Positions 2,593 through 49,590 of a DNA stretch of 49,590 nt are shown here, in pieces. Within the stretch, counting starts at the first letter, position 1. Each line of letters opens with the position of its first letter. Origin of the DNA: a virus. The notes beneath the pieces were generated by a model. That model was not told the origin of the DNA, made no database searches, and was given only the letters and a program-made list of their open reading frames with translations. The DNA is taken from positions 1 to 49,590 of IMG/VR virus record IMGVR_UViG_3300021962_000166; one strand, written 5' to 3'. The position numbers were made by a program, and so were the translations under genes.

Positions 2593-3216
2593 ATGCAAAA
2601 TCAAACCTATTCAACCCTATCGTCTATCAATGTAAATGATAAGACCGAGAAAAAAGGAAACCAAACCTATCTGTCTTGGGCATATGCCTGGGCAGAGGTC
2701 AAGAAACACTTTCCAAACGTACAGCGCAAGGTGTACGAGGATCCAACTGGCCAGAACTACTTCACCGACGGCAAGACATGCTGGGTGAAGGTTGGTGTTG
2801 AGATCGATGGCCTAGAGCACATCGACTACCTGCCGATCATGGACATGCGAAACAACGCTATTCCATTGGAGCGTGTTACATCATTTGATGTAAACAAGGC
2901 TATCCAACGATCAGCCACCAAGGCCATCGCCATGCACGGACTTGGTCTGTACATCTATGCCGGAGAGGACATGCCTGAGTCTGCCGCTGAGTCTGCCGCT
3001 GAGCAAATGAAGAAAGACGGGTTCAGAGCCGCCACTCAAGAAGACAAGGACAAGGCCGGAGCCATTGACCGAAAGGCATTGACCAAGTTCATGACAGCTG
3101 CCAAGAAGCGTGGCGAGACATGGGAGAAGGTCCTAGAGGCGATCGAGGCCAAGAAAGGAAAGTTAGACATCAAGACCAACGCAGAGATTTACAATGAGTA
3201 CCATCAACTTGCTTAG
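2593..3216 (+). CDS. Single-strand annealing protein, Sak3/DUF1071-like (207 aa)
   Basis: The N-terminal ~135 residues match the DUF1071/Sak3-type ssDNA-annealing family: QTYLSWAYAWAEVKKHFP near the start, a strand-rich middle (CWVKVGVEIDG), and VNKAIQRSATKAIAMHGLGLYIYAGED. Such proteins anneal complementary ssDNA in phage recombination and usually pair with an exonuclease. The partner here is the RecB-like nuclease starting at 3194, which overlaps by 23 nt. The C-terminal part (about 140-207) is Ala/Lys-rich and helical, with a short DNA-level duplication giving ESAAESAAE. An SSB gene follows. Confidence 0.82.
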   Translation: MQNQTYSTLSSINVNDKTEKKGNQTYLSWAYAWAEVKKHFPNVQRKVYEDPTGQNYFTDGKTCWVKVGVEIDGLEHIDYLPIMDMRNNAIPLERVTSFDVNKAIQRSATKAIAMHGLGLYIYAGEDMPESAAESAAEQMKKDGFRAATQEDKDKAGAIDRKALTKFMTAAKKRGETWEKVLEAIEAKKGKLDIKTNAEIYNEYHQLA

Positions 3217-3913
3217 GTCCGATGAGAACTACTACGGAGAAGAAGGCAAGAAGTACTTATCCAACTCTGACATTGGTTCTCTATTAAAAGATCCGTTCAC
3301 GTTCAGGAAGGACAAGCCCAAAACCGTTCCGATGGTGGAGGGCTCATACTTCCATACGGCTCTGCTGGAGCCCGAGAAGCTTGTGAACTTTCAATTCGTT
3401 GACGCATCAACACGTACAACCAACAAGTACAAAGAGGCTGCCGGTGGAGACATCCTGCTGTTGGAAAGCGAGAGAGCTGACCTAGACAGAATGGTCGACA
3501 CCATCCAAGGCAACATCGAGTTCTTTGATATGGTGTACGCTGAGGGTGCCAAGTTCGAGGAGCCGGCTATCGGTGAGATCAAGTCCACCATGTGGAAAGG
3601 GAAGGCCGACGTGCTGACCGCTGACTACATCGTAGACCTGAAGACAACGAGCAATATCGACGACTTCAAGTGGTCGGCTAGAAAGTACAACTACGACTCA
3701 CAGGCGTGGATATACAATCAGCTGTTCGGTGTTCCGTTGATATTCATTGTCATCGAGAAAAAGACATGCCGTACCGGATTGTTTGAATGCAGCGAGGCCT
3801 TCTTAGACGCTGGGCGTGAGAAGGTCTACAAGGCGATCGAGGTGTATAACAAGTTCTTTGCACCAGGAGCCACAGAAAAATTGTCCCAGTATTTTATTCA
3901 AGAAACCCTTTAA
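3194..3913 (+). CDS. PD-(D/E)XK exonuclease, RecB/DUF3799-like (239 aa)
   Basis: The order of motifs matches RecB/lambda-exo-type nucleases: GxxxH (G50-SYF-H54), E123 region, KGKADVL with D139, IVDLKTT with D148 and K150, and QxxxY (Q170-AWI-Y174). The LSNSDIGSLLKDPFTF start is typical of the DUF3799 RecE-like group. It probably resects dsDNA ends to feed the annealing protein encoded immediately upstream, a Red-like recombination pair. The 23-nt overlap with that gene suggests coupled translation. All key catalytic residues appear present. Family confidence is high, in vivo role inferred. Confidence 0.85.
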   Translation: MSTINLLRSDENYYGEEGKKYLSNSDIGSLLKDPFTFRKDKPKTVPMVEGSYFHTALLEPEKLVNFQFVDASTRTTNKYKEAAGGDILLLESERADLDRMVDTIQGNIEFFDMVYAEGAKFEEPAIGEIKSTMWKGKADVLTADYIVDLKTTSNIDDFKWSARKYNYDSQAWIYNQLFGVPLIFIVIEKKTCRTGLFECSEAFLDAGREKVYKAIEVYNKFFAPGATEKLSQYFIQETL

Positions 3914-20779: not shown

Positions 20780-21685
20780 TTAGAATGTAGTATATTGTTC
20801 AAATGGTGAAGTGAACGGCGAGAAGTAATTACGTGCGTTTATATTTGACCCCCCCATTGATGGAGGCATTTGAGACAAAAGCTCAACGTTTGTTGGTAAA
20901 GTTCTCAATGGTGGAGCATTGTAATTTGCCTGCAATCCATATATATTTGGTTGCCTCAACATTGGTGCATTAGGATTAGGATTTGCCTGCAATCCATATA
21001 TATTTGGCGGTGTTGCTGCCTTTGCTGTAGGCGGAGCGTAGTTTGGAGCTACGGATGATTGAAGCCCTGTTTTTTGATCTGTAATAGTGCGTGTTCCTTC
21101 TGGGGCAATGCCTAATTCGCCTTCGACTTGAGGATATAATGCACTCAATCCATAAATGTCAATGCCAGCCTGTGCAACTGTTTGAGCAGCGCTACTTAAT
21201 GCAGCACGCTTATCTGACTCGGCTTGAGCAGCAGCTTGCTGTGCTCCACCAAGTTCCATGCCTTCAATGTTAGCCTGAAGTGCAAGGTTTGCGTCCGAGA
21301 TAGCCTGTTGGTTACGTGCACGCTCAAGGTTACGAGCATATTCCATTTCGTTAACTTGAGCCATACGAGCCAAATCTTCTTCGGCTCCCATTGCGGCAAG
21401 GCCTGGTGTTCCGCCAAGAACAGCTGCACCGCCGGCCTCCTGTAGTGCCTGAATCTGCATCGCTTCACGCTGTGCTTGCTTTTGAGCAGCCTGCTCAAAT
21501 CCCATCATTGGGACTTGAAGACCAGCCATGGTGTCCTCATATCGCATCGCCTTCAAGCGAGCAGCAGCAGCATCCGCAGCGGCCTCTGCTTCTTTGCGTT
21601 TTTTTGATGCACCAATTGCTTGACCTACGCTTAGGCCAGAGCCGATAAGTGTGGTAGCTATTGGAATTACTAATGGTAGCGCCAT
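20780..21685 (-). CDS. Putative internal virion protein, Ala-rich with N-terminal membrane-like segment (301 aa)
   Basis: Begins with a hydrophobic segment (ALPLVIPIATTLIGSGLSV), followed by Lys/Ala-rich helices (KKRKEAEAAADAAAARLKAM) and long Ala/Gln coils, a composition typical of T7 gp14-like ejection proteins that enter the outer membrane. The C-terminal third is Pro/Asn-rich and contains two copies of PNIYGLQAN encoded by an exact 27-bp DNA repeat. A TATCTTTG box ends 4 nt before the ATG, and the next gene follows without a gap. Function inferred from context. Confidence 0.6.
   Translation of the reverse strand: MALPLVIPIATTLIGSGLSVGQAIGASKKRKEAEAAADAAAARLKAMRYEDTMAGLQVPMMGFEQAAQKQAQREAMQIQALQEAGGAAVLGGTPGLAAMGAEEDLARMAQVNEMEYARNLERARNQQAISDANLALQANIEGMELGGAQQAAAQAESDKRAALSSAAQTVAQAGIDIYGLSALYPQVEGELGIAPEGTRTITDQKTGLQSSVAPNYAPPTAKAATPPNIYGLQANPNPNAPMLRQPNIYGLQANYNAPPLRTLPTNVELLSQMPPSMGGSNINARNYFSPFTSPFEQYTTF
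20924..21007 (-). repeat. Exact 27-bp direct repeat in the 301-aa gene
   Basis: Identical copies at 20924-20950 and 20981-21007, 57 nt apart (19 codons, in frame), encode PNIYGLQAN twice. The identity at the DNA level suggests a recent in-frame duplication. Confidence 0.85.
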
Positions 21686-37717: not shown

Positions 37718-38001
37718 TTGCTACGTCTTTCCGCAAAGCCTTTGGTTGATGTAATGGACTCGGACACGACAGAGTCTTCTGCCGTGAGCAGGTTACGCTC
37801 CTCGTCTATTCTACGAAGGATGTCAAATGCATCCATAATGGCTAATCTTTTGGCGGCAGCAGCATTCTTGAGCCTGTCGGCAGACAGGTCACTCTCAATG
37901 TCACCGGTAACGATTGGTTCTTTGGCCACCTTGATCAGTTCCTTGACAGCGTGCTCACCAGCCGTGATGATCTCTTCTTTTAGTTTCCTTGTTTGAGACA
38001 T
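37714..38001 (-). CDS. Putative terminase small subunit-like protein (95 aa)
   Basis: A short, mostly helical charged protein (KLKEEIITAGEHAVKELIKVA, then AAAAKRLAIMDAFDILRRIDEERN). Its place directly upstream of terL, with a 4-nt overlap, suggests the small terminase subunit that recognises DNA. No HTH is clear, so this is inferred from position. The start overlaps the end of the GroES-like gene by 22 nt. Confidence 0.5.
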   Translation of the reverse strand: MSQTRKLKEEIITAGEHAVKELIKVAKEPIVTGDIESDLSADRLKNAAAAKRLAIMDAFDILRRIDEERNLLTAEDSVVSESITSTKGFAERRSK

Positions 38002-38555
38002 ATATTCGAGTCGTACATTCTATACAAAATCCTGTCATCAATCCTGAACTCATACTCAGAATCAGGCTGAAAGGATATAACATCTCCGCTGGCTACGCCA
38101 AGCTCACGCAATCTTTCGTTAGGATACACCATAGAGCCCCATAGAGCGACGTTCGCACCCTTCTTGGCTATGATGGTATCTTTCTCCTCTTTGATTGGCT
38201 CTACGAAGCAATAACGGCCTACAGGCTCCCAGTCCTCGCCAGGATGTCGGTAAGCGTAGAGCTGCATGTCGTCAAGGTAGTACAGATTTTCACGAATGAA
38301 TGAGTAGGAGTCTATCTCCTTTCCTCTCATATCAAACATCTTACGAAAAACATTATGATGAACAATGACGTCATCACCAATAGCGATAGGGCCGCCATAT
38401 CCGAAGGGGACATTGACGACCTTTGCGAGCCTGTTTGTAACGGTGTGGTCCTCTTGCGAGGTGCTAATGATAAACTCTTTGTCTCCGTAGTTCCTGGTAT
38501 TAGTGTACCTTTTCCCATCAACAGGCTCCACTACAAAATAGTAGAGCGATTGCAT
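37980..38555 (-). CDS. GroES-like protein, possible tandem co-chaperonin folds (191 aa)
   Basis: Both halves look like Cpn10/GroES barrels. First half: YYFVVEPV, then LAKVVNVPF, IGDDVIVHHNVF and a final ENLYYLDDMQLYAY. Second half: GRYCFVEPI, IIAKKGANV, ASGDVISFQP and DDRILYRMYDSNI. A gp31-like phage co-chaperonin would help the host GroEL fold the capsid protein, which fits a place in the late arm near terminase. Similarity is weak and judged by eye, so a different beta-barrel protein is possible. Confidence 0.5.
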   Translation of the reverse strand: MQSLYYFVVEPVDGKRYTNTRNYGDKEFIISTSQEDHTVTNRLAKVVNVPFGYGGPIAIGDDVIVHHNVFRKMFDMRGKEIDSYSFIRENLYYLDDMQLYAYRHPGEDWEPVGRYCFVEPIKEEKDTIIAKKGANVALWGSMVYPNERLRELGVASGDVISFQPDSEYEFRIDDRILYRMYDSNICLKQGN

Positions 38556-42325: not shown

Positions 42326-42354
42326 CAAATATAATACTTAGAATACATTTACAA
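42326..42354 (-). promoter_or_regulatory. Promoter TTG-N18-TATATTTG
   Basis: Minus-strand TTG (42354-42352), 18 nt, then TATATTTG (42333-42326), ending 4 nt before ATG. It sits across the end of the fibre gene. Confidence 0.7.
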
Positions 42355-45300
42355 GTATGCCGTTGACAAATTGCAAGTTTTGTTGACCAGGAGCATTGGT
42401 CGGGAAGTTGACAGTCCCGTTCCAGCCTTGGTTTCCTTGAGTAAATACAGCTCCATCATTTCTGACAGAGAATATTTCTGTACCGTTTGAGTCGTCTAGT
42501 CTTGCTGCCTTTTCAGTCGCATCAGCCGTTCTTCCACGCACTGCAAACTCAGCATCTGATATTGGTGCTGGATATGAGTAACCAGTGCCTCCGTAGTTTA
42601 CATAAACGCCTTGGCTACGACCTACTAAGTCAGTGTCCAGCAAAATGGGCTTATAAGACCCTGCTCCGTTGCCATAGTTGTATCCTGTGAACTGAACATG
42701 TGAGGTATCGTTGTATCGGAAGATAAAACCAGATGCAGCTCCACCACCTTGACCGCAACCAAAGAAGGCGTAAGCGTCTCCACGGAAGTCCATGATGGAT
42801 GTTCCGTTTGAGTTCTGTACCTCGAAGATAGAGTCTGCGTATGCGCTGCTGCTGGTAGATCCTTTGATAAAGACATCTCCGTTTACCTGTAGTTTCTTGC
42901 CGTTGTCAGTAGTAGTTCCGATGAGGACGTTGCCACTGGATGTCATCCTCATCACAAGAGGATTAGCATTACCAGTGTAAAATGATAAAGCATTTCCAGA
43001 AACTGCGGTTTGTATGAATCCACCACTTGAGTCAGCTCCAATTTCTACTTTACCAGTTCCACTATTACTTACCCTTATTCCTGTTTGACCACTACTAGAT
43101 GCAACCTCCATACCTTTGCCTCCATATATAGTCGGACTAGTAGTTCCAATACCTACGTTACCTCCAGTTGTTACCGTTAATCTATCATTTGTACCGATAG
43201 TAGAATAGTTACTGATGGTAAATGCATTACTGTTGGAGTTATCTATTCCGATTGACCAGTCATTATTCCCTTGGAAATAAATAAATTGGTCGTACGCAGC
43301 ATTATTACCTACAATCATCCTTGTGTTGGCACCTGACTTGTGAACGTGTAATATGTCGGTTGGACTAGTAGTACCAATACCTACGTTGCCGTCTGAAGTG
43401 ACTATCATTCTTGTAGCTATACCACTTCTAACTAGCTCCCAACTATTTGCACTGTTCGCATAAGTATGCCAAGTTTGTGTACCACCATACTGATAACCGA
43501 TAGCTCCGTTTACTGTTAACTTTTCTCCAGGACTAGTTGTTCCAATACCTACGTTGCCACCATTAAAGTGTGAGATTCCGTAAGAGCTTATAAAAACATT
43601 GGAGGTTCCAGCATTATTTCTTAATGTTATTTTGCCCCCTCCAGTTGAAGGGTCACTACCCGCTAAAATAGTATTTACAGAGTTCCAGTTTGTAACAATA
43701 AATCCTTCTAAACCAGTGTTATCTTCTTTTAGATTTAATTTAGTAGCAGGACTAGCAGTACCAATACCTACGTTGCCGTCAGCTCTAACTACCATTCTTA
43801 CAGTGTTGCTTCCGCCTGCACCCGATAAAGAAGACAATCTTAAAAGCTGTTCTGTTCCATAAGAGTTGGTTTCTATATGAAGACCTAAACCATTAGCACT
43901 CTGATTCCAAGCATAAATACCCCAATTGCTACTATTTGAAACTACCTGTAATTTGCCATCACTTGGTGATGTAGTTCCAATACCTACGTTGCCTGCGGAA
44001 GTGATGCGCATGCGTTCCGAACCAGCAGTTTCAAATGATGTGAAGGTATTAGCCATAACCCTCAACGATGAAACATCACTACTAACTTGTGCAATACCTC
44101 CGCTTTCTAGTCCTAAATAAAGTGAGTTTATATTGTTTTGAACACGAGTATAAACTGCACCACTTGCTGCATTAAGATGAAGTAATTGCGATGGGCTTGT
44201 AGTACCAATACCTACGTTGCCGTTAGTGAGAATTGCTAATCTAACATTACCTCCCGCTTCTAAATACATTGGCACATAAGAAGATGTACCAAAATAAGAA
44301 GATGTTATATAACTCGCTCCACTATCTACGCTAAGTACTAATTGTTGAGTATTGGCAGTAGCAGAAGAAATTCCAACAATGCCATTTACGCTTAACTTTC
44401 TATTTGGAGTAGTAGTACCAATACCTACGTTGCCATAAAGATACACATCCGTATTAGCGGCAATAGAAAAAGCATAAGCACCTAATGTTTGGTTGTAAAT
44501 GTCAAATCTATTTCCATTGGCCGAAGGTTGTGAAATTAATCTATACCACTGGTCTGCACCTTTTAACTCTAATGCTGTTTGATAACCGGACGCTGCTGAA
44601 ATTGCAATATTAGCATTAGTAGTAGATGCAACGTGTAACTTATAATCAGGACTCGTAGTACCTATACCTACGTTGCCTGAACTAGTAATGCGCATACGTT
44701 CGTTATCAGTATTGGAAGCTGAAGTGCCAAAAACAAGTGCGGTATTAACTTGAGAGGTAATGCCGAATACGCTTTCACGGATGCTTTCTATATATCCTCC
44801 GTTCGCTGTTCCATTTACTCCACCAGTGCCATAAGAGTGCTTAAACAAGAATCCAACTTCTCCGGTGGTGTCACTTCCGTTTTGCGGAATGGTTCCACTC
44901 TGAAGTACAATCAATGAGTTTCTTGAAGATGCGTTGCTTGGTCCGAGTCCAAAATATGCTATTGGATTTGTTGTTGACTCATTGACAGATAACTTATAGG
45001 CTGGACTAGTAGTACCAATACCTACGTTGCCGTTATTATAAACTCTAAGACCTTCAGCATATGTACTTAGTCCGTTTTTATAGTTTAAAGCAACATAGGT
45101 AGTATCATTTATAGTCTCAACTATGCCAGTTGAAATATACCCCAAAACACCATACTGAGCTCCTAGCCCTAATCGTGTTTCTGCAACATTCCAGTCTGCT
45201 CTTGATATGATAGCTGAGTATGTATCTGATTTGTATATGTGTAGAGGAGCAGCAGGACTAGCAGTTCCAATACCTACGTTGCCATTTCTTTTAAATGTTA

Positions 45301-48300
45301 CTGTATCAGTAAAGGTTGGCGTATTATCTTGGTAGGATATATAAAGATTATCATCAGCAGCATTGTGTCTTAATGTCCATCCCCAGTTGATGCCCGCTTC
45401 GGTTAGCATAATACCACTGTAATTAGCAGCCTGACCGCCCGCTTCTATCTTGATGTAATTATCGGCTCCAGTACGAGCTAAGTGTAGCATCTGCCCAGGA
45501 CTAGTAGTACCTATACCTACGTTGCCACCCATAAAGTAGGAAGAGCTAGTGGAGTGTATTCTTGATGTTCCAAAGTTTACGGAGTAACCACTTGTTACGT
45601 TTACTTGATCATTAAGGTAAATCTGACCATTTAGTCTTGTTGTACCATTTACATCCAACTTATACCCTGCGTCTGTTGTGGTGCCAATGAGGACATTACC
45701 ATCGCTAGTAATGCGCATACGCTCTATATTATTGCTGGTAAACGCAAAATAATTATTGGTTTGCGTTCCAATGTATCCTCCGTTTCCGTCAGAATAAAAA
45801 TGAGACTTTACACTTGCTCCATTGTTAGCTGTGTAAACTATACCACCACCACCAGTAGATTTACCCTGAACTTCCAACGTAGTCCAAGCAGCGCCGACTA
45901 CCTGTGGACTAGTAGTACCAATACCGACGTTGCCGTTTCCAGTAATGGTCATACGGGTATATAAATCCGTGTATGCTCCATCTCCTGTTTTAAACTTAAT
46001 ATTTCCGTAATATGGACTTCCTTCTACTGTAGAAGATATTGCTGCTCTGACAGAACCGACAGAACCAATTCCACTATCGTTAAACAATATTGCAGTTTCA
46101 TTATCTACTGCTAATCCATTATTATTAAGTATTATATGACCACCAAGACCGCCACTATTTGCTTTGTATACTTCAAGCGGCCCTTGAGGACTAGTAGTAC
46201 CGATGCCTACGTTGCCATAAGTAGCATTTAAGTAAGTATTACCGGGTCCGCTTATGAGTGAATTAAGAGTTCCGTTTGAAGAGTACACATAAAGTGCTCC
46301 GTCAGTCGTACCTCCTCCAAGTCTTGCTATACCCTCTACGTGTAATTTTTGAGCAGGACTAGTAGTACCAATACCTACGTTGCCTGCAGTAGTTAATACC
46401 ATTCCTGTCGCTGAAGAGTTGTCTCCATAGAATGATAATCCAGAAGCTCCTACAACGCCACTTTGGAATAAACCATACCCGGCAACCTCTAATTTTTGAG
46501 TAGGACTAGTAGTACCAATACCTACGTTGCCAGCGGCGGTAATTGCCATCTTTGTGCTTTGGGCAGCGCCAGTTGCTCCAGTATCTATATATAAGTTACC
46601 ACCATCAAACTCTCTTAACACAGCTACTCCATTAGATCCGGTATTTCTTTGAAGAGCAATAAAAGGCTCCACATTTGCAGTTGTCCTTACAATAATTCCG
46701 TCAGACACAGAAGAATTAATATGCAACTTTGACTCAGGACTAGTAGTACCAATACCCAATCCAGTGTTGTTCAATCGCATTCTTTCAGAAGCACTTTGCT
46801 GACCCCAAATCCAAGTTGGAGTTGAAGAACCTATAAGGTTGTACTGAACGTTTGTTGATGCGTATATTAAATGCTCTTGGTTCGCACCGTGTCTAAAAAC
46901 TATGTTGCTATACTCAGTTCCATCTCCAACCACCGTAAGTTTACCACCGGGACTAGTAGTACCAATGCCTACGTTGCCTGCATTCGTCATTGTTAACTTA
47001 GCACTTAGGTTAGAGGCACCTCCAGCAGTTGTACCTGTACCTGTACTAATATCTAATGCACCATCATTAAAATTTATTACGGCCGACTTGACAGAACCGT
47101 ATTTATTAACCCATCCTGATGCTCCGTAAACAGTGTTAAATGTTAAATAAGCATCGTAATTGTCTCTAAACAATACTCCAAATGCACCAGCATTAAATGT
47201 ATTATATGAAGAATTAGTTGCTGTATATGAACCAGGGCCTAATTGAAGTATACTAGACGGACTAGTCGTACCTATACCTACGTTGCCACCTGAGGTGATA
47301 CGCATACGTTCTGTTAATCCATTTGAAAACAATAACAAATGACCACTAGTTCCACCAACTCCACTTTGCGCATTAAAGTTACCATCTGTCAACACTAGAG
47401 TGTTGTACAGGTACATATCATAGTAAATCTTGGTAGACCTACCTGCTGAACCTATAACGTGCAAAGCTCCAGTTGGACTTGCAGTACCAATACCTACGTT
47501 GCCTGAGCTTAAAGTCATTGTGGCCACATAAGTAGCTTCTGGTGTGAAATAAAACTTTCCGTCAGCAGCTCCAAGTAAATACGGTGCTGAAACTGTTGTT
47601 GGATTAAATCTTAAATAAGGCTCTCCTTGAGACAACTCAAGTATCCTTTGTGGACTAGTAGTACCTATACCTACGTTGCCTCCAGTAAAGTATGTATTAC
47701 CAGAAGTAGCTAAGAAAACTCTTGTAGTAGTAGTGCTATCAAGGATTCCAAAATATGTATTTGAACCCTCTATGTATGCAGAGTATTTTCCATTGTTTGC
47801 AAAGTGAATAGTTCCGCCAGATTTTATTACGGGGTATTGATTTGAAGCATATCCCGGTAAATCTCCACTCAACTCAATGTATGAACCGTCAGTTATGCCA
47901 GTTACTCTTACTCCTCCACCTTGATGTACCGTTAGTTTGTTTGATGGACTAGTCGTCCCAATACCTACGTTGCCAGATGTATCTACAACAAATCTTACTG
48001 CGCTTGCGTTACTATCGTACAAGTAAAACTTATTAGCAATTCCAAGGGCAGTTTCAGAACCGTTTCCTACACCTTGAGACCAAGTCCTTCCGGTTCCTAA
48101 ATATCTTATAGCTGTGTAGTTAGTTGCTGTTGTTCCTTCAATCTGTATGAGGGCAGACTCTGTGCTTTTAACGTGTAGAGGGTAGCTTGGACTAGTAGTA
48201 CCAATACCAACATTGCCGTTAGAGAGGGCCGTAATTACGTTTGTGTTGTCTACAGATAGACCGAATGAGCCCTTGGCTCCAATGCCTTGAGTCAGTACGT

Positions 48301-48559
48301 TCTGAGCCTTTACAGTGCCTCCAGTAAGGAACCCGCCCTCCGCATATACAATGCCTGTCAAGAATGAGTTGCCGTAGTCCCCAATGCCGTTTGCGGCAGC
48401 GTACAAACTATCGATAAATCCACCCTCGTCAGTCACACGGACATAGTAGTCCCACGTTTCTCCAGTGGCCGCTCCGTAAAGGTTTTGATTTCCAGTCAAT
48501 ATTCCATCTACCCCCTCCAAGTTGCAGGTGGTAGACGTGAGTTTACTCAGATACTTCAT
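42338..48559 (-). CDS. Long tail-fibre protein with 24 GNVGIGTTSP-type motifs (2073 aa)
   Basis: The N-terminus (LSKLTSTTCNLEGVDGIL, then AATGETWDYYVRVTDEGGF) is a normal-composition head part for virion attachment. The bulk is a chain of 24 copies of a GNVGIGTTSP motif (variants GNVLIGTTTD, TGLGIGTTSP), each followed by L-x-V/L, spaced by roughly 50-110 residues and sharing near-identical DNA. The C-terminus (about 200 residues, ending QNLQFVNGILVNVF) is again different. Trimeric beta-fibre, receptor binding is likely. No S74 peptidase chaperone or lyase motif is seen. The repeat region is much more A/T-rich than both ends, suggesting a mosaic. A TAAATTTG box lies 6 nt upstream. Confidence 0.85.
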   Translation of the reverse strand: MKYLSKLTSTTCNLEGVDGILTGNQNLYGAATGETWDYYVRVTDEGGFIDSLYAAANGIGDYGNSFLTGIVYAEGGFLTGGTVKAQNVLTQGIGAKGSFGLSVDNTNVITALSNGNVGIGTTSPSYPLHVKSTESALIQIEGTTATNYTAIRYLGTGRTWSQGVGNGSETALGIANKFYLYDSNASAVRFVVDTSGNVGIGTTSPSNKLTVHQGGGVRVTGITDGSYIELSGDLPGYASNQYPVIKSGGTIHFANNGKYSAYIEGSNTYFGILDSTTTTRVFLATSGNTYFTGGNVGIGTTSPQRILELSQGEPYLRFNPTTVSAPYLLGAADGKFYFTPEATYVATMTLSSGNVGIGTASPTGALHVIGSAGRSTKIYYDMYLYNTLVLTDGNFNAQSGVGGTSGHLLLFSNGLTERMRITSGGNVGIGTTSPSSILQLGPGSYTATNSSYNTFNAGAFGVLFRDNYDAYLTFNTVYGASGWVNKYGSVKSAVINFNDGALDISTGTGTTAGGASNLSAKLTMTNAGNVGIGTTSPGGKLTVVGDGTEYSNIVFRHGANQEHLIYASTNVQYNLIGSSTPTWIWGQQSASERMRLNNTGLGIGTTSPESKLHINSSVSDGIIVRTTANVEPFIALQRNTGSNGVAVLREFDGGNLYIDTGATGAAQSTKMAITAAGNVGIGTTSPTQKLEVAGYGLFQSGVVGASGLSFYGDNSSATGMVLTTAGNVGIGTTSPAQKLHVEGIARLGGGTTDGALYVYSSNGTLNSLISGPGNTYLNATYGNVGIGTTSPQGPLEVYKANSGGLGGHIILNNNGLAVDNETAILFNDSGIGSVGSVRAAISSTVEGSPYYGNIKFKTGDGAYTDLYTRMTITGNGNVGIGTTSPQVVGAAWTTLEVQGKSTGGGGIVYTANNGASVKSHFYSDGNGGYIGTQTNNYFAFTSNNIERMRITSDGNVLIGTTTDAGYKLDVNGTTRLNGQIYLNDQVNVTSGYSVNFGTSRIHSTSSSYFMGGNVGIGTTSPGQMLHLARTGADNYIKIEAGGQAANYSGIMLTEAGINWGWTLRHNAADDNLYISYQDNTPTFTDTVTFKRNGNVGIGTASPAAPLHIYKSDTYSAIISRADWNVAETRLGLGAQYGVLGYISTGIVETINDTTYVALNYKNGLSTYAEGLRVYNNGNVGIGTTSPAYKLSVNESTTNPIAYFGLGPSNASSRNSLIVLQSGTIPQNGSDTTGEVGFLFKHSYGTGGVNGTANGGYIESIRESVFGITSQVNTALVFGTSASNTDNERMRITSSGNVGIGTTSPDYKLHVASTTNANIAISAASGYQTALELKGADQWYRLISQPSANGNRFDIYNQTLGAYAFSIAANTDVYLYGNVGIGTTTPNRKLSVNGIVGISSATANTQQLVLSVDSGASYITSSYFGTSSYVPMYLEAGGNVRLAILTNGNVGIGTTSPSQLLHLNAASGAVYTRVQNNINSLYLGLESGGIAQVSSDVSSLRVMANTFTSFETAGSERMRITSAGNVGIGTTSPSDGKLQVVSNSSNWGIYAWNQSANGLGLHIETNSYGTEQLLRLSSLSGAGGSNTVRMVVRADGNVGIGTASPATKLNLKEDNTGLEGFIVTNWNSVNTILAGSDPSTGGGKITLRNNAGTSNVFISSYGISHFNGGNVGIGTTSPGEKLTVNGAIGYQYGGTQTWHTYANSANSWELVRSGIATRMIVTSDGNVGIGTTSPTDILHVHKSGANTRMIVGNNAAYDQFIYFQGNNDWSIGIDNSNSNAFTISNYSTIGTNDRLTVTTGGNVGIGTTSPTIYGGKGMEVASSSGQTGIRVSNSGTGKVEIGADSSGGFIQTAVSGNALSFYTGNANPLVMRMTSSGNVLIGTTTDNGKKLQVNGDVFIKGSTSSSAYADSIFEVQNSNGTSIMDFRGDAYAFFGCGQGGGAASGFIFRYNDTSHVQFTGYNYGNGAGSYKPILLDTDLVGRSQGVYVNYGGTGYSYPAPISDAEFAVRGRTADATEKAARLDDSNGTEIFSVRNDGAVFTQGNQGWNGTVNFPTNAPGQQNLQFVNGILVNVF
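42905..48222 (-). repeat. Array of 24 degenerate fibre repeats
   Basis: The coding strand repeats a nearly constant block that encodes GNVGIGTTSP, seen on the plus strand as variants of CCAATACCTACGTTGCC. Spacers between copies differ in length and sequence. High DNA identity of the motif across 24 copies provides many sites for recombination and copy-number change. Confidence 0.9.
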
Positions 48560-48565
48560 TGCCTA

Positions 48566-48573
48566 CAAATTTA
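48566..48573 (-). promoter_or_regulatory. -7 box TAAATTTG before the fibre gene
   Basis: TAAATTTG on the minus strand ends 6 nt before ATG and lies in an interrupted palindrome TGCCTA-AATTTG-TAGGCA. The same TAAATTTGTAGGCA string occurs at the 39610 gene. No canonical TTG at 17-23 nt. Confidence 0.55.
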
Positions 48574-49590
48574 GGCAATCTTCGTCACTAAAACCCTGAG
48601 TGCGTTAGCAGTTACGGTAGAACAGAAATTAAGCGTAACAGTAGTCGTGCTGGTCCTTGTAGCATCGCAGATAACAGTCTCGTACGTGACCGCATCGTAC
48701 ACCTGGACAATCACATCACGAGACCCCAAGTTGTGCGTAATCACCCAGCTAGTGCCACCTGTGCTTGGGCCAGTTGCTGCGTAACTAACAGTAGAGTGGA
48801 TGTCAGCAGCAAGCTCAGCAGTCGTCAAGTACTCTACAACACCGTTGTCAGACACAAGGATCTTGTTGCCAGTGTACGCTCCGCCAGCAGCAGGGATAGA
48901 TCCAATGTGGAATGGCTGGTTGATGGTTGACCAATAGTCACTGCCCTCGATCCACAAGAACGACACGTCAGCAGACGTACCACGGTTTACCGTGAATCCA
49001 GAGTCTAACGTTGGCGTTCCCGTCTCGTCCTTGTTCAGGATGATGATGTTGTCTCCAATCTCAACAACCGTTGAGTTGATGTATGTTACCGTTCCGTTGA
49101 CAGTCAAGTTGCCGCCAATCGTAACAGTCGTTCCATCGTCAGAAATCGTACTGTTTACAAACTGACCATTTGTATCGTCCCACTTGGATAGATAGTTGTT
49201 CGTTAAGCTACCGCTGTTCTTTAGCTGAATCGTATCAGCGTTCACAGTGATACCCTCGCCCTGCCCAACGTTCAGCGTGCGTGAGACAGTAATGTCTCCA
49301 CCGCCAGTCAGACCGCTGCCTGCAATGATCTGAACGCCTGCGTGGTCTGTGTTGCGGGTGCTAGCAGTATCAAGCCCAACAGAGTTAGCAGCGACGCTAA
49401 TGCCTGTTCCGGCCCCTACGTCCAACGTTACAGTTCCTCCAAGAGATACAGTACCGCCAGTAATAAGACCTGCACCAGCCGTTACAGTGATGCTGCTGTT
49501 GACAAGCTTTGCATTGGTAATGGATCCGTCGATCAGGTACAGCTGGTTAGAGCCGTTTAGGCCGATCATTACATTGTCGTACTTGACGCT
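48571..49590 (-). CDS. Tail appendage protein, N-terminus beyond the window (339 aa seen)
   Basis: The frame is open through the right edge (SVKYDNVMIGLNG...), so the ATG at 49569 is probably internal and the protein is partial. It is beta-rich and repetitive: AGTGISVAANSVGLDT, GSGLTGGGDITVSRTLNVG, and VTIGGNLTVNGTVTYINST. This matches phage tail-fibre or baseplate appendage proteins with collagen-like or trimeric beta repeats. The C-terminal ~80 residues (SWVITHNLGSRDVIVQVYD) form a compact beta module. The fibre gene follows within 11 nt, so the two probably form one appendage unit. Composition is G/C-rich. Confidence 0.75.
   Translation of the reverse strand, partial: SVKYDNVMIGLNGSNQLYLIDGSITNAKLVNSSITVTAGAGLITGGTVSLGGTVTLDVGAGTGISVAANSVGLDTASTRNTDHAGVQIIAGSGLTGGGDITVSRTLNVGQGEGITVNADTIQLKNSGSLTNNYLSKWDDTNGQFVNSTISDDGTTVTIGGNLTVNGTVTYINSTVVEIGDNIIILNKDETGTPTLDSGFTVNRGTSADVSFLWIEGSDYWSTINQPFHIGSIPAAGGAYTGNKILVSDNGVVEYLTTAELAADIHSTVSYAATGPSTGGTSWVITHNLGSRDVIVQVYDAVTYETVICDATRTSTTTVTLNFCSTVTANALRVLVTKIA

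Follow-up and report, generated by a model that had tools for sequence, protein, structure and literature searches.

The long tail fibre gene described here very probably (we put the probability at roughly 0.8) encodes a chain of interchangeable beta-helix cassettes, in which the 29 bp of DNA coding for a recurrent motif serve as a homology joint for exchange between phages. Such motif-bounded cassette exchange is a large-scale variant of the known shuffling of adhesins. The gene is located in a window of 49,590 nucleotides, which is the whole stretch of viral DNA analysed (IMG/VR record IMGVR_UViG_3300021962_000166). The DNA of the motif is more uniform than codon bias would make it, and this excess ends sharply at the 29-bp edges. 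In addition, a given cassette turns up in different phages beside different neighbours, with the identity breaking at the motif. A text search of the literature found no phage papers on this motif.

Organisation and composition of the fibre gene

The fibre gene consists of an N-terminal segment, 24 motifs enclosing 23 internal cassettes, and a C-terminal domain (Table 1). Among the PHROGs tail fibre families it matches phrog_18345 (E 5e-85) and phrog_9942 (E 4e-83). The 24 motif repeats counted in the initial annotation are indeed present: 21 copies follow the strict pattern GNVGIGT[TA][ST]P, one reads GLGIGTTSP and two read GNVLIGTTTD, the commonest form being GNVGIGTTSP. At the DNA level the pattern GGCAACGTAGGTATTGGTACTACTAGTCC is matched with at most 3 mismatches by 20 motif copies, all in a single orientation, while the reversed control pattern has 0 matches. 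The spacers between the motifs are 39-108 codons long and only weakly similar to each other as proteins, with a partial pattern in common (ERMRITS-GNVGIGTTSP--KLxV), and no DNA similarity was found among the spacers of the window. The earlier description of the repeats as near-identical is therefore right for the 29-bp joint and wrong for the repeat unit. The homogenised DNA in the array amounts to 29 bp, the longest exact repeat of the gene to 32 bp.

Table 1. Positions in the window of the fibre gene, its parts and associated genes.
Feature	Position	Strand	Remarks
Sak single-strand annealing protein	2593..3216	+	Pfam SSAP_Sak E 7e-37; phrog_659 E 1e-58
Exonuclease VIII-like PDDEXK nuclease	3194..3913	+	Pfam DUF3799 E 4e-19; phrog_412 E 3e-29
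Fibre gene	42338..48559	-	ORF of 2073 aa; PHROGs tail fibre families
C-terminal domain, probable tip	42341..42904	-	begins after the last motif
Motif array, 24 copies	42905..48217	-	
Motifs 1-8, 5' ends	48217, 47974, 47680, 47503, 47287, 46978, 46765, 46531	-	
Motifs 9-16, 5' ends	46384, 46216, 45934, 45700, 45526, 45283, 45031, 44677	-	
Motifs 17-24, 5' ends	44434, 44221, 43993, 43777, 43558, 43390, 43162, 42934	-	
Cassette 5	46979..47257	-	end-to-end homologues in five other loci, 80-83% nt
Cassette 7	46532..46735	-	homologue in L107/L050, 72% nt
Cassette 11	45701..45904	-	homologue in L062 and L009, 79% nt over 173/204
Cassette 13	45284..45496	-	homologue in L028, 77% nt over 202/213
Cassette 14	45032..45253	-	homologues in L112 (82%) and L165/L152 (71%)
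Cassette 15	44678..45001	-	homologue in L143, 80% nt over 311/324
Cassette 17	44222..44404	-	homologue in L074, 81% nt over 182/183
Cassette 22	43163..43360	-	partial homologue in L076, 74% nt over 151/198
N-terminal 114 aa	48218..48559	-	native-like composition, GC3 0.54
Upstream appendage/fibre gene	48571..49569	-	GC3 0.54; open to the window end

For the N-terminal segment no similar sequence was found in any locus compared. The C-terminal domain is 80-82% identical at the amino acid level in three other loci (L128, L129, which is a 100-kb contig, and L130); its AlphaFold model was discarded (pLDDT 37). The upstream appendage gene is still open at positions 49569-49590 and its start is probably missing.

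The mosaic adhesive trimeric (MAT) fibres of Bdellovibrio bacteriovorus carry a capping-loop motif V-G-x-G/N...P...L at the edges of their beta-helices (PMC10769870), and the GNVGIGTTSP motif matches the region of this loop. With a profile built from 60 cassettes Bd2133 is found at E 1e-23, the match being centred on the motif region, and the five PDB sequences matched by this profile are all Bdellovibrio cell-surface fibres. The model of a cassette, computed as a single chain of a presumed intertwined trimer, is all-beta with a pLDDT of 83. Its top Foldseek matches are again MAT fibres (E 4e-4), with TM-scores of only 0.30-0.39, which are probably so low because the model contains a single chain. 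For an S74 chaperone-protease domain at the C-terminus of the fibre there is no Pfam match at E 1.

The initial annotation had described the core of the gene as foreign-looking between native ends, based on four hand counts of G/C (21, 34, 33 and 28 of 60), all of which are exact. The contrast is larger at third codon positions, where the GC3 of the core is 0.26 in comparison to 0.54 in the N-terminal 114 aa and 0.43 in the C-terminal domain; outside the fibre gene the values are 0.54 for the neighbouring fibre gene and 0.50 for the other ORFs of the window. A compositionally foreign core with more native-like ends is thus confirmed. Since GC3 shows no significant heterogeneity among the 23 spacers (0.18-0.38, p = 0.21), the composition steps at the first and the last motif. 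This homogeneity also led us to reject the idea that composition reveals cassettes of mixed origin. In 50 relatives the GC3 of the core follows 0.08 + 0.49 x that of the other ORFs; in 44 of them the core has the lower value. As the slope is about half that of the locus, the core of GC-rich phages is much GC-poorer than the phages themselves. The low GC3 looks like a property of a shared cassette pool which includes AT-rich phages, and may also come from a codon preference intrinsic to such genes.

Conservation of the motif DNA

In the motif copies of the window the joint is written with GGC in 20 of 21 cases, AAC in 20 of 21 and AGT in 18 of 20, whereas the fibre gene overall prefers GGA and GGT for glycine. 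The synonymous homogeneity of the motif is 0.72, compared to a null mean of 0.35 (maximum 0.43 of 5000), and conserved residues just beyond the motif show an ordinary codon spread. Over 42 fibre genes, codons 0-8 have a synonymous excess of +0.08 to +0.51, the proline one of +0.05, and positions outside one of about 0; the leucine four codons past the motif proline has no excess, although it is conserved in 80% of the copy pairs. The locus set used here is enriched for one motif pattern, but loci which had not been selected by a DNA pattern, and which are therefore unbiased as to codons, reproduce the same synonymous profile. The exact 29-mer is present in 50 viral stretches, whereas a synonymous control 29-mer, expected 1.6 times as often (background probability 7.2e-5 versus 4.4e-5 for the motif), was found in 0 viral stretches.

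The idea that one version of the motif DNA is common to all viruses had to be given up. Codons vary in the codon-unbiased viral sample, where only GGC AAC and AGT are moderately enriched, and the motif consensus differs from phage to phage. Searching 84,980 species genomes for the DNA motif pattern yielded three records, all of them metagenome-assembled genomes (MAGs) of Patescibacteria (CPR; contigs L405, L406 and L407). With so few hits, cellular organisms seem to contribute little, and the idea of a bacterial reservoir was set aside.

Cassettes shared between phages

We compared 871 spacers from 164 non-redundant fibre genes, most of the loci being metagenome assemblies. Between genes, 75 full-length homologous cassette pairs were found, only 4 of which have a homologous neighbour, and in 28 of the 75 both neighbours are present and unrelated. 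Several pairs are 96-100% identical, while outside the fibre gene the fetched loci do not resemble each other at the DNA level. Averaged over the 26 cassette pairs of at least 90% identity, the identity is 0.93-0.99 inside the cassette, 0.79-0.92 in the motif and 0.33-0.42 beyond it, except that about 0.5 is reached immediately upstream and, on the downstream side, at the conserved KL. Matches end inside a motif in 23% of cases versus 6.4% under random placement. The motif copies bordering near-identical cassettes have as many as 7 mismatches, located at variable positions. In genes with several common cassettes their order can be scrambled (L038/L097, L047/L080). The median dN/dS of the shared cassettes is 0.11, in a set which was found by nucleotide similarity and thus favours conserved pairs. 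Shared cassettes are constrained proteins under strong purifying selection and not filler, and cassette novelty is owed more to exchange than to point mutation.

The same picture is found in isolated phages. The fibre genes of the cyanophage S-CRES1 and of S-CRES2 are 99.6% identical and show 14 differences, 12 of them no further than about 31 nt from the start of a motif and seven inside motifs (p = 1e-4); several of these changes turn the motif toward the within-gene consensus, and multi-base changes are clustered. Between S-TIM5 and S-TIM66 a block of about 1.1-1.2 kb starting at a motif is replaced, with flanks 99% identical, and S-TIM54 has one motif-bounded segment in common with the other S-TIM phages. 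Because these breaks at motifs occur in isolates, they are not explicable by chimeric metagenome assembly.

Only about seven regions of the window fibre, namely cassettes 5, 11, 13, 14, 15 and 17 and the C-terminal tip, have near-full-length DNA homologues among the fetched sequences, mostly on a different contig each. At 71-83% identity the cassette matches are old, and among the fetched sequences no exchange was seen in the population to which the window belongs. The initial annotation had proposed that the core was acquired as a block and then expanded. This does not hold, as the spacers are not duplicates and the cassettes match different phages one by one; the matches point instead to a core which would have been assembled by piecemeal exchange from a shared pool. 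Its second suggestion, recombination between near-identical repeats, is supported as a way in which fibres are reshuffled from phage to phage, by cassettes in new company and breaks at the motif.

The terminase places the phage with Flavobacterium/Cellulophaga-type phages. The closest relative, at 96% in the terminase and with 90% nt identity along 13.4 kb, lacks this fibre type and has short, unrelated fibres at the fibre locus, so that turnover inside the window lineage is left without an example. These are two short fibres (L404, 7569-10800) which resemble trimeric adhesin heads and, by eye, YadA. This fibre type was seen in three of the 30 relatives whose sequence extends at least 6 kb upstream of the terminase, which means that the whole gene is exchanged as well. 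Repeat number and order, which had been proposed as a check among relatives, are accordingly not fixed, given the scrambled cassettes and the quite different fibres of the closest relative. In the latter, GroEL-like and GroES-like genes adjoin the fibre locus (L324, 1044-2851), and the window itself encodes a GroES-like co-chaperonin (37980-38555). The gene at 20780-21685 has a sub-threshold Pfam match to a T7 gp14-like internal virion protein, contains a 57-bp imperfect tandem repeat and is unusual in composition (GC1 0.62, GC3 0.33).

Proposed mechanism of exchange, rival explanations and known systems

In the mechanism we propose the shaft would consist of 23 beta-helix cassettes in a row, all interchangeable and each opening with a capping-loop motif, and the tip would be C-terminal. 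The 29 bp coding for the motif would serve as homology joint. In a co-infected cell, motif copies would recombine by strand annealing, and whole cassettes would thereby be added, deleted or swapped. Such an exchange would stay in frame and leave the fold intact; a cut at the capping loop presumably keeps each beta-helix segment whole. The Sak and exonuclease pair would carry out the exchange, and the outcome may change receptor choice or reach; host range might plausibly be affected. The exonuclease VIII-like gene overlaps the Sak gene, i.e. a Sak-type recombination system is present in the window, and its two products could be the enzymes for exchange at short homologies. Rad52-like phage recombinases (Redbeta, Erf, Sak) manage with short or diverged homologies (PMC3945230); the relaxed recombination shown there concerns lambdoid phages, and the Sak of the window belongs to the same recombinase group. 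The RecET-like pair (2593-3913) is found here in a Flavobacterium/Cellulophaga-type phage, and an HNH endonuclease, possibly of the homing type, is encoded upstream of it (1297-1719). A target of a diversity-generating retroelement was also considered and rejected: no reverse transcriptase was found among the large window ORFs scanned, and the differences are whole cassettes.

The strongest competing explanation is gene conversion among the motif copies, which would homogenise the 29 bp and make cassette exchange a by-product and not a selected function. It would account for the differences between S-CRES1 and S-CRES2, which lie mainly in or beside motifs and partly lead toward the within-gene consensus, for the mismatched motifs (up to 7) flanking near-identical cassettes, as if the recipient's motif had been retained, and for the motif consensus being each phage's own. 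We consider it quite possible, at somewhat less than even odds; however, conversion alone leaves the sharing of whole cassettes between phages unexplained, and it is more a companion of the exchange than an alternative to it. Conservation of the motif for the protein alone, with the DNA likeness due to codon bias or recent duplication and the sharing due to ordinary domain shuffling, is unlikely. The motif is a protein feature of many unrelated viruses, with varying codons and no dominant DNA version, and the MAT structures assign it a structural role. Yet the homogeneity exceeds the codon bias of the gene and stops at the 29-bp edge, a conserved neighbouring residue has no excess, and the synonymous 29-mer favoured by the bias is absent. 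Recent duplication of units is excluded because the spacers between motif copies are unrelated.

We give very little credence to a site-specific system of the shufflon, invertase or integron kind targeting the motif. It would fit the fact that exchanged cassettes are delimited by a short conserved sequence, but all motifs are direct repeats, while a shufflon or invertible segment would need inverted ones, no integrase, invertase or other recombinase of this kind was found among the window ORFs scanned, and both the differing consensus between phages and the mismatches of flanking motifs at variable positions speak against it. Just as improbable is an assembly artefact, in which short repeats led assemblers to join pieces of different phages. 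The sequences are mostly metagenomic and the breaks lie exactly at repeats; however, a longest exact repeat of 32 bp is short for normal assembly, most shared cassettes have diverged between contigs (to 70-95%), which chimeric joining of one sequence cannot produce, and the same breaks occur in isolate genomes.

Cassette exchange at the motif DNA has counterparts in known systems. In T-even type adhesin shuffling, short conserved adhesin motifs reportedly act as recombination points which swap variable segments. Exchange junctions lie in conserved motifs beside variable segments here too, but with 24 joints in one gene, a quantified synonymous conservation of 29 bp and sharing among unrelated environmental phages. 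The MAT fibres (Bd2133, Bd1334, Bd3182, Bd2439) have variable tips, share their type of capping-loop motif with the phage fibre and presumably also the trimeric beta-helix shaft, their diversity being described at the tip (PMC10769870); in the phage fibre, by contrast, the whole shaft is a 23-cassette mosaic with a joint at the DNA level, and there is no S74 domain. Domain shuffling of phage receptor-binding proteins has given otherwise unrelated tail fibres recent fragments in common, the parts of that study considered here describing no repeated joint of the kind seen in the window (PMC10684548).

One may go further and suppose that the 29-bp block is selected as a joint and that each cassette has its own glycan-binding cleft, which would make the fibre a stacked array of exchangeable receptor-binding units. 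We hold this rather doubtful; if true, coding DNA would be kept identical so that unrelated phages can trade cassettes. Cassette exchange would account for the odd composition of such fibre genes, and it makes long mosaic fibre genes unfit for inferring the relatedness of phages. The motif-jointed cassettes suggest how phages rebuild the fibres with which they contact their hosts by swapping parts: one coding motif would cap the protein structure and at the same time supply the homology at which the DNA is joined, and would mark the natural points where such fibres can be cut and joined while the fold is spared.
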